DNA of 64,000 nt from the NCBI RefSeq assembly GCF_000763575.1, contig NZ_CP009170.1, positions 2,195,501 to 2,259,500 on the forward strand, read 5' to 3'. Below are positions 7,824 to 11,559 of this stretch, in pieces; the first letter of the stretch is position 1; the number at the start of each line of letters is the position of its first letter. Position numbers and translations under genes: made by a program. This stretch comes from Thermoanaerobacter kivui (lineage in GTDB: Bacteria; Bacillota; Thermoanaerobacteria; Thermoanaerobacterales; Thermoanaerobacteraceae). The notes beneath the pieces are model-generated. The model searched no databases and was not told the DNA's origin. It saw nothing but the letters and a program-made list of their open reading frames with translations.

Positions 7824-9197
7824 TTATTGAAAATTAGCACTACTTTGCAATTTTACAGGAACTGTGAAGGTCTTGCCGTTTCTCCAAATAGTTACATTTA
7901 TTACATCTCCAACTTTGTGGCTGCTAATTACACTTTGTAAGTCTTCAAAAGAAGTCATGTTTTTGCCATCAACTTTTATTATAACATCTCCTGGTTGAAT
8001 GCCTGCACGTTCTGCTGCACTATTAGGTTGAACTTGGGCTACATACACTCCTACAGGCAAGTTATATTGGGCTGCATCTTGTTTTGTAATGGTCTGGGCA
8101 CCTATGCCCATCATTGGTCTTTCTACATAACCACGTTTTATTATCTGTTCAATTATAGGTTTTGCTTCGTTTATTGGGATTGCAAAGCCCATTCCTTCAA
8201 CTGGAGTACCTTGGCTTTGGAACAACCCGAAAGGATCTTGCATGCTTGGTCCTGTTGAAGTAAGTTTAACACTTGTTATCCCTACAACTTCAGCTTTACT
8301 GTTTACAAGAGGTCCACCGCTGTTGCCAGGATTTATCGCAGCATCTGTTTGTATGAGTTTGACTGGACCATAATCACTTTGGAGGTTTCTGTTAAGTCCG
8401 CTTATTATACCTGCAGTGACTGTCCCTGCAAAGGAATCTCCCAAAGGATTTCCTATCGCGATTGCCAGTTCACCCGGTTGAAGTTTTGAGGAATCGCCAA
8501 GTTTTACAACAGGTAAATTAGGAAGGTTTATCTTTAAAACTGCAAGGTCTGTTCTCGCATCTTTGCCTATTAACTTAGCTTCTGCACTTCTACCATCCAA
8601 AAGTTTCACTGTAATCTTTGAAGCACCATCAATAACATGGTTATTTGTTACAATATATCCATCAGAGCCTATTATAAAACCAGAACCACTGCCTTTGGGT
8701 ACATATTCTGTTCTATAACCGTTTGTGTAAGCAACGTTTGTATCAATTTCTACCACTGCAGGACTCACTATTTTGTAAATGTTAGGTATTAAATCTAAAA
8801 TGCCGTTTGAGGATGTTTCAGTATCTGACAGTGGCAAATACCTTGTAACGACTTGTGGTGTAGATCCCGTCCCTGTTCCATAATATTTCATTACAGCCCC
8901 TGTAACTCCGCCGCCAATGAGAGCTGCTACCAATGCCACTGCTACAAAGGAAGCTAACATTTTTCTTCTAAATCTCTTTGCCATTTTGCCAAGGCTTTTT
9001 TTATTGTTTCTAAATTCTACTTTGGGATGTATAGCAGTATTTTGATCTTCTTCCGGTTGTTGTTCTTCTGCTTTTAATATTTCTTGACTTGCATCCTCTA
9101 CCGTATACTCCGCCTCTATTTCATTTTTTTGAGAAGGTACCACATTTTCAGGGTCATTCTTTTCGATTTTATTTTCAAAGTCCTTGTCGTAATCCAT
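7824..9197 (-). CDS. htrA: Membrane-anchored HtrA/DegP-type serine protease
   Basis: Extracytoplasmic quality-control protease. About 457 residues from ATG 9195-9197 (AGGAG 9 bases upstream; a GTG two codons earlier is possible). Acidic cytoplasmic N-terminus of about 80 residues, one membrane segment (about 82-105), then a trypsin-like domain. Numbered from that GTG, the catalytic residues are His189 (TNNHVIDG), Asp219 (DARTDLAVL) and Ser295 (NPGNSGGPL); subtract two from the ATG. A single PDZ domain occupies about 365-455. It lies directly downstream of a response regulator/kinase pair and has two repeat-type promoters upstream. The order recalls walRK...htrC of Bacillus, suggesting the two-component system controls it. 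Confidence 0.94.
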   Translation of the reverse strand: MDYDKDFENKIEKNDPENVVPSQKNEIEAEYTVEDASQEILKAEEQQPEEDQNTAIHPKVEFRNNKKSLGKMAKRFRRKMLASFVAVALVAALIGGGVTGAVMKYYGTGTGSTPQVVTRYLPLSDTETSSNGILDLIPNIYKIVSPAVVEIDTNVAYTNGYRTEYVPKGSGSGFIIGSDGYIVTNNHVIDGASKITVKLLDGRSAEAKLIGKDARTDLAVLKINLPNLPVVKLGDSSKLQPGELAIAIGNPLGDSFAGTVTAGIISGLNRNLQSDYGPVKLIQTDAAINPGNSGGPLVNSKAEVVGITSVKLTSTGPSMQDPFGLFQSQGTPVEGMGFAIPINEAKPIIEQIIKRGYVERPMMGIGAQTITKQDAAQYNLPVGVYVAQVQPNSAAERAGIQPGDVIIKVDGKNMTSFEDLQSVISSHKVGDVINVTIWRNGKTFTVPVKLQSSANFQ

Positions 9198-9231
9198 ACT
9201 CACTCACTCCTTTCGTTCTTTCTTGTCTCTA

Positions 9232-9274
9232 ATTATACCCCCTGTTTATTAACAAATTATGAACATCGTGTAAA
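9232..9274 (-). promoter_or_regulatory. Proximal htrA promoter with three 11-bp direct repeats
   Basis: TATAAT at 9237-9232 preceded by GGGG and then, reading upstream, TTAATAAACAG (9252-9242), TTCATAATTTG (9263-9253) and TTTACACGATG (9274-9264). The TTnAnA hexamers recur every 11 bp, the pattern of OmpR/PhoB-class activator boxes. No good -35 hexamer is present, as expected for an activator-dependent promoter. Confidence 0.65.
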
Positions 9275-9317: not shown

Positions 9318-9394
9318 AAAATAAATGTGCGGCCCAATGGGTGGCTTGGGCCGCTATAATAAGGGAGGTCAAGGAGAGGCATTTGTCGCTCTCA
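9318..9394 (-). ncRNA. Candidate small RNA between kinase gene and htrA
   Basis: A transcript from the distal promoter (TATAAT 9406-9401) would begin near 9394. It contains a small GAGAG/CTCTC hairpin, then a CU-rich stretch CCTTGACCTCCC complementary to Shine-Dalgarno sequences, then a GC-rich hairpin with perfect 9-bp arms GCGGCCCAA (9354-9346) and TTGGGCCGC (9337-9329) and a T-rich tail ATTTATTTT. This is the usual layout of a Gram-positive C-rich regulatory RNA. It could instead be only the htrA leader and the kinase terminator. No coding potential seen. Confidence 0.4.
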
Positions 9395-9400
9395 AGTATC

Positions 9401-9443
9401 ATTATATCCTTTATTTATGAATAAAGTGTTAACAAAGTGTAAA
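9401..9443 (-). promoter_or_regulatory. Distal repeat-type promoter upstream of htrA
   Basis: TATAAT at 9406-9401, spacer AGGA, then reading upstream TTCATAAATAA (9421-9411), TTAACACTTTA (9432-9422) and TTTACACTTTG (9443-9433). Number, period and distance to the -10 are identical to the proximal promoter at 9232-9274. It starts 18 bp past the kinase stop. Confidence 0.65.
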
Positions 9444-9460
9444 TATTTTATTGTGATTTT

Positions 9461-10873
9461 TTAAAATTTTTTCACCGGTAAAGTAAAAGTAAATGCTGTA
9501 CCTTTACCGAGTTCACTTTCTACCCATATCTCCTCATTATGAGCATTTATAATGCGCTTTACTATATAAAGTCCAAGGCCTGCTCCATCTTTCCCTCTCG
9601 ATTTGTCCGCTTTATAAAATCTATCCCATATATGCTCTTGGTCTTCTGGAGAAATACCTATTCCATTATCTTTTATAGTAATAAATGCCTTGTCATCTTT
9701 TATTTCAGTAAAAATATGAATTATACCCTTTTCTTTAGAAAATTTTATTGCATTGTCTATAAGATTTGTCAAAACTTGTTCTATCTTATCTTTATCAGCT
9801 ATAACTATTCTTCTGTCTTCTTCAAAATCAACTTTAACGCTTAGATCTTTTTCCACTATTCTTTTTTCAAACTTTATAACAGCCAGTCGAATAAGTTCAT
9901 TTATATCAAATTCAGTCTTATTAAGTGGAAATTGGCCTGACTCAAGTTTAGTCATTTCAAGAAAATCGTCTATGAGTCGAGACATCCTCCTTGTTTCTTT
10001 TTGCACTATTTTAAGATAATCGCAAGCTTTTTCCTTTGGTATAGTTCCATCTAATATTCCATCAATATAGCCTTGTATAGATGTCAATGGGGACCTCAAT
10101 TCGTGAGAAACATTTGCCACAAAATCTTTTCTCATGTCTTCTAATTGTTCTAATTCTTTTGCCATAACATTAAAGGATTTAGCTAAATCCCCTATCTCAT
10201 CATCTTCTTTATGTTGCACCCTTGCAGAAAAATTCCCCTTCGCTACCTGCTGAACAGCTAAGCTCATCTCTTTAAGAGGCTGAGATATTCTACTGGAAGT
10301 ATAAGAAATGAGCACAAAACCTATTATAAGAGCTACTCCTCCAGATAAAAGCATTAAAATAAAAATGTTTATAATGGTTTTATTCATTTCTGTCAAAGGT
10401 GCATGCATAAATATAGCCCCTTCAATACGGCCATTTATAACAAGAGGCACTCCTACTGTCAAAACAGGCTGATTAAATTTACCACCAAAATATCCTTTTT
10501 TTACAACAGATTGTCCATCTAAAATGCTTTTTATTTCTTCTTTACTGAGGCTTACTCCTGTCCACGCTTTGCCCTGCTGCTGTGATTGACTGTAAATTAG
10601 CCCTTCTTTATCCACGATCCATACAGTAGCATTAATCAACCTAGTAACAACATTTAATTCTTGATTCCATTTATCTATATTTATGTCACCTACTGCAAAT
10701 TCATTTAAAATTGCATTTATTTCTTGAGCCTCTTCCAACATTATTTTTTCTTTGTCGGCAAAATAATAGTTTTGAAACATCAGATAAAACATCCCTGAAA
10801 GGATAGACAAAGTAATAAGGATAATAATTATATTGCTTATAAAAAGTTTTTTAAAGAGTCTATTTTTGCTCAA
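9461..10873 (-). CDS. Sensor histidine kinase
   Basis: 470 residues. Membrane segments at about 12-33 and 166-190 flank an extracellular sensor region of about 130 residues; HAMP about 190-243; dimerisation domain with phospho-acceptor His257 in FVANVSHELRSPLTS; ATPase domain with an N-box LTNLIDNAIKFS and G-boxes DNGIGIS and GAGLGLYIVKRI. TTG start (10871-10873) with GAGGTG 7 bases upstream. Its gene follows the response regulator stop by 2 bases, so they form an operon. The architecture is of the PhoR/WalK/ResE group; lack of a PAS domain argues against orthodox WalK. Confidence 0.93.
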   Translation of the reverse strand: MSKNRLFKKLFISNIIIILITLSILSGMFYLMFQNYYFADKEKIMLEEAQEINAILNEFAVGDINIDKWNQELNVVTRLINATVWIVDKEGLIYSQSQQQGKAWTGVSLSKEEIKSILDGQSVVKKGYFGGKFNQPVLTVGVPLVINGRIEGAIFMHAPLTEMNKTIINIFILMLLSGGVALIIGFVLISYTSSRISQPLKEMSLAVQQVAKGNFSARVQHKEDDEIGDLAKSFNVMAKELEQLEDMRKDFVANVSHELRSPLTSIQGYIDGILDGTIPKEKACDYLKIVQKETRRMSRLIDDFLEMTKLESGQFPLNKTEFDINELIRLAVIKFEKRIVEKDLSVKVDFEEDRRIVIADKDKIEQVLTNLIDNAIKFSKEKGIIHIFTEIKDDKAFITIKDNGIGISPEDQEHIWDRFYKADKSRGKDGAGLGLYIVKRIINAHNEEIWVESELGKGTAFTFTLPVKKF

Positions 10874-10875
10874 AT

Positions 10876-11559
10876 TTAGTTCACCTCAAATTTGTAGCCT
10901 ACACCCCAAACAGTAGTAAGTTTCCAGTTGGGTCCATCTCCCATTTTCTCTCTAAGCCTCTTGATGTGGACATCTACAGTACGGCTATCCCCCATGTAGT
11001 CATAACCCCAAACGTTTTCCAGTAATTGGTCTCTTGTAAACACCCTGTTGGGGTGTGTACACAAAAAATACAAAAGTTCCAATTCTTTCGGAGTCAAATC
11101 GATGTTTTGACCTTTGTACCTTACTTTGTACTCACTTAAGCTTACATAAAGGTCGGGATATGTGACCGCTTGTTTATCTTCTCCTACAGGTTCGTATCTT
11201 CTTAAAACAGCTTTTACTCTAGCCACCATTTCTTTCCCATCAAAAGGCTTTACAATATAGTCATCCGCCCCAATCTCTAACCCTAATACCTTATCAAAAG
11301 TGTCTCCTTTTGCAGTAAGTATTATAATAGGCACTTTTGAAAATTTTCTCACTTCCTTGCAAAGGGCTATACCGTCAATACCAGGAAGCATCAAATCAAG
11401 TATAATGAGCCTTGGAAGTCTTTCTTGGATCTTCTTCAAAGCCGTTTGCCCATCGTATATTTGTTCCACTTCAAAACCTTCTTTTTCAAGATACAAAGAA
11501 ACTATTTCACATATATTTTTGTCATCATCTATAACATAAATTTTCTGATTTTCTCCCAC
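10876..11559 (-). CDS. OmpR/PhoB-family response regulator
   Basis: 227 residues. Receiver domain with the acidic pair DDD near residue 11, phospho-acceptor Asp55 (LIILDLMLPG) and conserved Lys in DDYIVKPF; C-terminal winged-helix DNA-binding domain with ELLYFLCTHPNRVFTRDQLLE and SRTVDVHIKRLREK. GTG start 11557-11559 with GAGGGTGG upstream. An extended -10 (TGGTATAAT, 11598-11606) lies just upstream. This family binds direct repeats with 11-bp period, which is what precedes htrA, so self-contained control of htrA is likely though not shown. Confidence 0.93.
   Translation of the reverse strand: MGENQKIYVIDDDKNICEIVSLYLEKEGFEVEQIYDGQTALKKIQERLPRLIILDLMLPGIDGIALCKEVRKFSKVPIIILTAKGDTFDKVLGLEIGADDYIVKPFDGKEMVARVKAVLRRYEPVGEDKQAVTYPDLYVSLSEYKVRYKGQNIDLTPKELELLYFLCTHPNRVFTRDQLLENVWGYDYMGDSRTVDVHIKRLREKMGDGPNWKLTTVWGVGYKFEVN

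Follow-up and report, generated by a model that had tools for sequence, protein, structure and literature searches.

A small RNA gene lies between a sensor histidine kinase gene and an htrA-type serine protease gene of Thermoanaerobacter kivui, within the 64,000-nucleotide stretch of DNA analysed here (the window), and it keeps its position, core sequence and promoter type across 20 genomes of the family, which include Thermoanaerobacter wiegelii, T. thermocopriae, Caldanaerobacter subterraneus and Thermoanaerobacterium species. The element was recovered by DNA search in these 20 genomes; a covariance model built on it matched 20 of 20 family genomes and none of 17 more distant members of the class, and the kinase and htrA genes flank it in all 20, the end of the response regulator gene being visible only in loci long enough to reach that gene. 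The initial annotation had proposed a candidate small RNA at 9318-9394 without assigning a strand, and the analysis bears this out, on the minus strand (Table 1). Its remark that such an RNA had not been described also holds, given that no comparable regulatory RNA, curated or described in the open-access literature, was found for these thermophilic clostridia and that Rfam yielded no match. The small RNA represents a new family, an obvious candidate for its regulator adjoins it, and judging from complementarity and promoter layout it probably acts in trans as an antisense RNA under the adjacent two-component system, blocking translation of extracytoplasmic function (ECF) sigma factors and some membrane proteins.

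Table 1. Features of the small RNA locus of T. kivui (positions in the window).
Feature	Position	Strand	Basis and remarks
OmpR/PhoB-family response regulator gene	10876..11559	-	Nearest MtrA/YycF(WalR) models, under their cut-offs
Sensor histidine kinase gene (HAMP, HisKA, HATPase)	9461..10873	-	WalK/PnpS-like kinase core, under every curated cut-off
Direct-repeat box of response-regulator type, TTTACA-N5-TTAACA-N5-TTCATA	9416..9443	-	Upstream of small RNA; kept in 20/20 loci
Small RNA -10 element TATAAT	9401..9406	-	Sequence
Small RNA gene, ~77 nt	9318..9394	-	Predicted start ~9394, end ~9318; fold, covariance model, alignment
5' hairpin GAGAG...CTCTC, 5 bp	9374..9393	-	Fold and alignment; not retained in macAB-linked paralogs
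Invariant C-rich core CCTCTCCTTGACCTCCCTTAT	9359..9379	-	18 consecutive columns without variation in 20 genomes; 19/21 overall
Intrinsic terminator hairpin, 9 bp, GC-rich	9329..9354	-	T-rich tail 9328-9318; terminator scan
Second repeat box TTTACA-N5-TTCATA-N5-TTAATA, htrA promoter	9247..9274	-	Own TATAAT at 9237-9232
htrA-type serine protease gene (trypsin-like and PDZ)	7824..9203	-	Profile matches

Structure and conservation of the small RNA

The minus-strand sequence, read 5' to 3', is TTGAGAGCGACAAATGCCTCTCCTTGACCTCCCTTATTATAGCGGCCCAAGCCACCCATTGGGCCGCACATTTATTTT, and its minimum free energy of -24.2 kcal/mol (z = -4.2) was not equalled by any of 200 shuffled sequences. All three elements that had been described from the letters, a small 5' hairpin, an unpaired C-rich linker and a 9-bp stem, are present in the computed fold, in which the linker between the two hairpins reads CCTTGACCTCCCTTATTATA, and the earlier length estimate of about 77 nt is correct provided that the transcript starts some 7 nt past the TATAAT. 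The 9-bp terminator stem (GCGGCCCAA/TTGGGCCGC) is followed by ACATTTATTTT, and a terminator scan returned a single site (stem 9354-9329) against 0.3 expected by chance; since the tail is T-rich but interrupted, this terminator is plausible rather than ideal. The plus-strand reading was rejected, its fold being weaker (z = -2.3) and no promoter or terminator being correctly ordered on that strand.

In the 20-genome alignment, the 18 contiguous bases CTCTCCTTGACCTCCCTT show no variation between genera, and mean column identity is 1.00 in the core, 0.78 in the terminator and 0.64 in the spacer before the htrA box. The initial annotation had let its candidate depend on conservation of the hairpin and the C-rich stretch, both of which are conserved in 20 of 20 family genomes, and had suggested a covariance analysis, according to which the terminator helix is paired in 97% of cells and four of its pairs show compensatory changes on both sides. 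The 5' hairpin is paired in 73% of cells with zero compensatory changes, because its 3' arm belongs to the invariant core.

Within the core, the part CCTTGACCTCCC is single-stranded in the fold and complementary to GGGAGGTCAAGG start sites, so that fold and alignment together give the mark of C-rich anti-SD regulatory RNAs as a functional class, a conserved unpaired C-rich stretch complementary to Shine-Dalgarno (SD) regions. The 16S rRNA of such bacteria ends in CACCUCCU, and the small RNA core GACCUCCC differs from this tail in two bases, one on either side of CCUCC. As these two bases favour GGGAGGUC over AGGAGGUG, pairing is predicted with selected targets and not with every ribosome binding site, and the core, judged by its sequence, is a specific element and not a generic copy of the 16S anti-SD tail.

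Promoter boxes, neighbouring genes and additional copies

The response regulator, kinase, small RNA and htrA genes follow one another in this order on one strand. The direct repeat that precedes the small RNA (9443-9416) has an 11-bp period, and a scan with fixed -35/-10 spacing detected no classical sigma-70 promoter for the small RNA; from the repeat and the TATAAT below it, the RNA is predicted to be transcribed. The second box, in the htrA promoter (9232-9274), begins only about 44 bp past the small RNA end, and since htrA has a repeat box and a TATAAT of its own so close, it looks as if one regulator acts on both genes in parallel. The initial annotation had also let its candidate depend on the transcript not simply running on into htrA; the separate htrA promoter speaks against this, although some readthrough may occur. 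Only four exact matches to the pattern TTTACA-N5-TTMAYA-N5-TTMAYA occur in the 2.4-Mb genome, two of which are the small RNA and htrA promoters, and both boxes are conserved in the 20-genome alignment. Going by this box pattern, it is reasonable to suppose that the small RNA is controlled by the adjacent two-component system. The kinase and regulator were not named WalRK, because both fall under every curated cut-off.

Tandem repeats of the TTAACA type also occur elsewhere in the genome (L163-L165, L167 and L160; G000 at 1.463-1.466 Mb, 43.6 kb and 293 kb), where they precede pst-like transporter, alkaline-phosphatase-like and nucleotidase-like genes. Because those repeats adjoin pst-like genes and phosphatases, membership of the small RNA locus in the Pho regulon was rejected, and the locus has a box type of its own; judged by their promoters, the TTAACA-repeat genes of G000 belong to a Pho-type regulon of their own, whose box is related. 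In one further genome (G011, L026 2675-2745), a promoter resembling the repeat-type promoter of the small RNA directly drives a gene which, from its translation, we take to encode an LmbE-type deacetylase and which is possibly a further member of the regulon. In an order-level relative lacking the core (L027 2560-2700, minus strand), the htrA leader carries similar TTAACA-type repeats and, just before the gene, the C-rich hairpin CCCCCTGGGGGCTTTGCCCCCCTCCTTTT, possibly an unrelated C-rich leader RNA.

Elsewhere in five Thermoanaerobacterium genomes (loci L021-L025 in G019, G010, G014, G012 and G015), six extra copies of the small RNA were found, four of these genomes having a second copy and the fifth (G015) two more, in tandem. 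Every extra copy carries a box of the TTTACA/TTCATA/TTCATA type. The extra copy of G010 (L022) has an FtsW/RodA-type gene on one side and a membrane-fusion-protein/ABC (MacAB-like) efflux operon on the other, names that we assume from reading the translations.

These copies bear on the simplest alternative, namely that the element merely terminates the regulator-kinase operon, or serves as a leader or attenuator of htrA, with no separate function. Its place between kinase and htrA, on one strand and with a terminator-like hairpin, would fit such a role; however, the element has its own promoter while htrA has another downstream, conservation is far higher in the core than in the terminator, and a mere terminator or leader of kinase and htrA cannot account for copies distant from both, so that we regard this explanation as very improbable. 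A small protein gene (ATGCCTCTCCTTGACCTCCC...) deserves still less credence, close to none: an ATG does precede the core in Thermoanaerobacter, but it is not retained in the Thermoanaerobacterium copies or in G011, has no ribosome binding site before it and is accompanied by no codon rhythm in the conservation, and the small open reading frame was rejected since its ATG is not conserved.

Candidate targets among ECF sigma factor genes

Targets were predicted by pattern searches and from fetched loci, start sites of the T. kivui genome being sampled by pattern and start codons of the sigma factor genes being set by script. A search for long complementarity (AAGGGAGGTCAAGG, up to two mismatches) gave no clear target and fewer matches than the reversed-pattern control, and the pattern GGAGGTCAA followed by a start codon gave scattered candidates without family-wide conservation, presumably SpoVAE-like, IspH, PspC and TyrS genes according to their translations. 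The AAGGGAGGT search yielded many sites, part of them before ECF genes, and GGGAGGTC placed before a start codon in the 20 genomes left about 11 credible start-site gene families once in-gene matches had been removed. Three of these families are ECF sigma factors, A (SigW-like), B (BldN/SigZ-like) and C (SigM-like), whose sigma domains were confirmed by Pfam and NCBIfam at scores under the equivalog cut-offs; the others include a Thermoanaerobacter membrane protein, a TM2 protein, a YcdB/PepSY protein, encoded near the ECF gene of group A in C. subterraneus, along with strain-specific genes.

Because the AAGGGAGGT and GGGAGGTC searches both pointed to ECF genes, the ECF start sites were tested as a class, and the enrichment of complementary start sites in ECF genes proved to be confined to genomes that have the RNA. 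GGGAGGT is present in 17 of 46 ECF start sites of the family against 0 of 25 in RNA-free order- and class-level relatives (Fisher p 1.7e-4, an approximate and optimistic value, since ECF genes share ancestry and orthologues are not independent), and in none of 50 start sites of window genes; the ECF idea came from the same searches, which makes the RNA-free relatives the fairer control. Group A genes carry the motif in all seven genomes where the group was found, and ECF orthologues outside the family carry other SDs, such as AAGGAGG in group B. When counted by ortholog group, the excess of small RNA pairing over 16S pairing is borderline (approximate p 0.054).

As regards individual mRNAs, the ECF_B and ECF_C interactions were matched by none of 100 shuffles in three of four cases and by 4 of 100 in the fourth. 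The predicted pairing with ECF_C mRNAs involves the two conserved C-rich segments, of which one meets the SD and the other the codons just past the start. In T. kivui itself the ECF_A interaction is unremarkable (9 of 100 shuffles as good) and the group B gene has lost GGGAGGT, and for these reasons species appear to differ in their target sets. No single target has a perfect 8-mer in all genomes, and htrA itself was rejected as a target, because the interaction energy (dG_int) at its start site equals that of shuffles. Among the T. kivui partners compared with shuffles, the strongest is a membrane protein gene with GGGAGGTC (dG_int -17.1, 0 of 100 shuffles), and the same 8-mer precedes this gene in several other Thermoanaerobacter genomes. 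The protein (L188, L187, L195, L340) has a repetitive C-terminal half and no Pfam match, and is conserved in Thermoanaerobacter. Taken on complementarity, the ECF sigma factor mRNAs appear to be the best-supported target class of the small RNA.

That this membrane protein gene is the best candidate in the T. kivui genome, and that ECF SDs are somewhat stronger for 16S too (approximate p 0.04), would also agree with a trans-acting C-rich antisense RNA with broad or other targets, acting as a general SD blocker, on membrane proteins or on one strain-specific gene, in which case the ECF enrichment would be a by-product of strong sigma gene SDs. We consider this rather unlikely, given that GGGAGGT is not the 16S optimum and does not occur in the RNA-free ECF and window gene sets, and that the core and the 16S tail differ on either side of CCUCC. 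The C-rich stretch might instead be bound by a protein (Hfq or some other chaperone) or serve as a sponge of another RNA, with mRNA pairing being secondary; conservation does reach past the SD-complementary part (CUCUCCUU), and a conserved nonamer of the streptococcal csRNAs has been suggested as a protein site (PMC3091779). However, complementary sites track the presence of the RNA across genomes and the CCUCUCC part also pairs in ECF_C mRNAs, which makes a protein site or sponge improbable.

If the small RNA is an antisense RNA directed at ECF mRNAs, as we favour, the kinase would sense envelope or protein stress and activate the response regulator, which would bind both boxes so that HtrA and the small RNA rise together. 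The invariant single-stranded CCUUGACCUCCC(UU) would then pair with SD regions of the GGGAGGU(C) type and keep ribosomes off the ECF mRNAs of groups A, B and C and some membrane protein mRNAs; HtrA would thus be raised directly, while rival ECF stress pathways would be held down via the small RNA. The regulator step is proposed because of the shared promoter boxes, and the target step because of complementarity and comparative enrichment. More tentatively, and with somewhat less than even confidence, we postulate a lineage-specific RNA through which an envelope-stress two-component system represses several unrelated ECF sigma factors at once, silencing parallel branches, with the evolution of their SDs to GGGAGGU(C) confined to genomes that have the RNA. 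Should the ECF link hold, an RNA would directly connect two main classes of stress signalling in bacteria.

Comparison with known C-rich regulatory RNAs

The initial annotation placed the RNA among C-rich RNAs under two-component control and named FsrA and RsaE as parallels; the kind seems well chosen, but the csRNAs and LhrC come closer than these two. FsrA, RsaE/RoxS and IsrR of low-GC Gram-positives share with the new RNA a single-stranded C-rich stretch that pairs, in the new RNA by prediction, with the SD, and differ from it in regulators (Fur in the case of FsrA and IsrR), structures and sequences. Rfam 15 covariance models, including those of LhrC, FsrA and RsaE, gave no gathering-level match in the window and chance-level matches only in the region (approximate E 0.49-8.9).

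In streptococci, CiaR of the CiaRH system activates htrA and five anti-SD csRNAs via an 11-bp direct repeat with the consensus NTTAAG-N5-TTTAAG upstream of the -10 element (PMC3091779); the csRNAs of this regulon were described in Streptococcus (PMC3091779, PMC8186281), and CiaRH has been reported only in streptococci (PMC3091779). The T. kivui locus resembles this regulon in its OmpR-family regulator and 11-bp direct-repeat box, in htrA being part of the same putative regulon, in the two stem-loops with an unpaired anti-SD linker, the 5' hairpin being weaker in the macAB-linked copies, and in the several copies per genome. Unlike the streptococcal system, the box is TTTACA-N5-TTAACA-N5-TTCATA, the local regulator is MtrA/YycF-like, the gene lies between kinase and htrA, the core is invariant whereas that of the csRNAs is variable, and the predicted targets differ. 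Two further csRNA marks are absent, the nonamer [A/C]UCCUAAA[A/C] from all aligned small RNA copies and the anti-start-codon CAU from the linker CCUUGACCUCCCUUAUUAUA.

LhrC of Listeria comprises five CU-rich RNAs that are LisRK-dependent and block translation (PMC4132741). LhrC1-5 and the new RNA are alike in being multicopy and CU-rich, in blocking translation via UCCC-type motifs and in two-component control linked to envelope stress, the last two being predicted here; LhrC has three redundant CU-rich sites as opposed to one core here, and its loci and the predicted targets are other ones. Given that box, nonamer, anti-AUG and Rfam match all fail, the small RNA would work like the csRNAs and LhrC but is assigned to neither, and a functional parallel with both, unrelated in sequence, is the best reading. 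This suggests that the tie of a C-rich small RNA to a stress two-component system, which in CiaRH and at the T. kivui locus also serves htrA, has arisen independently more than once.
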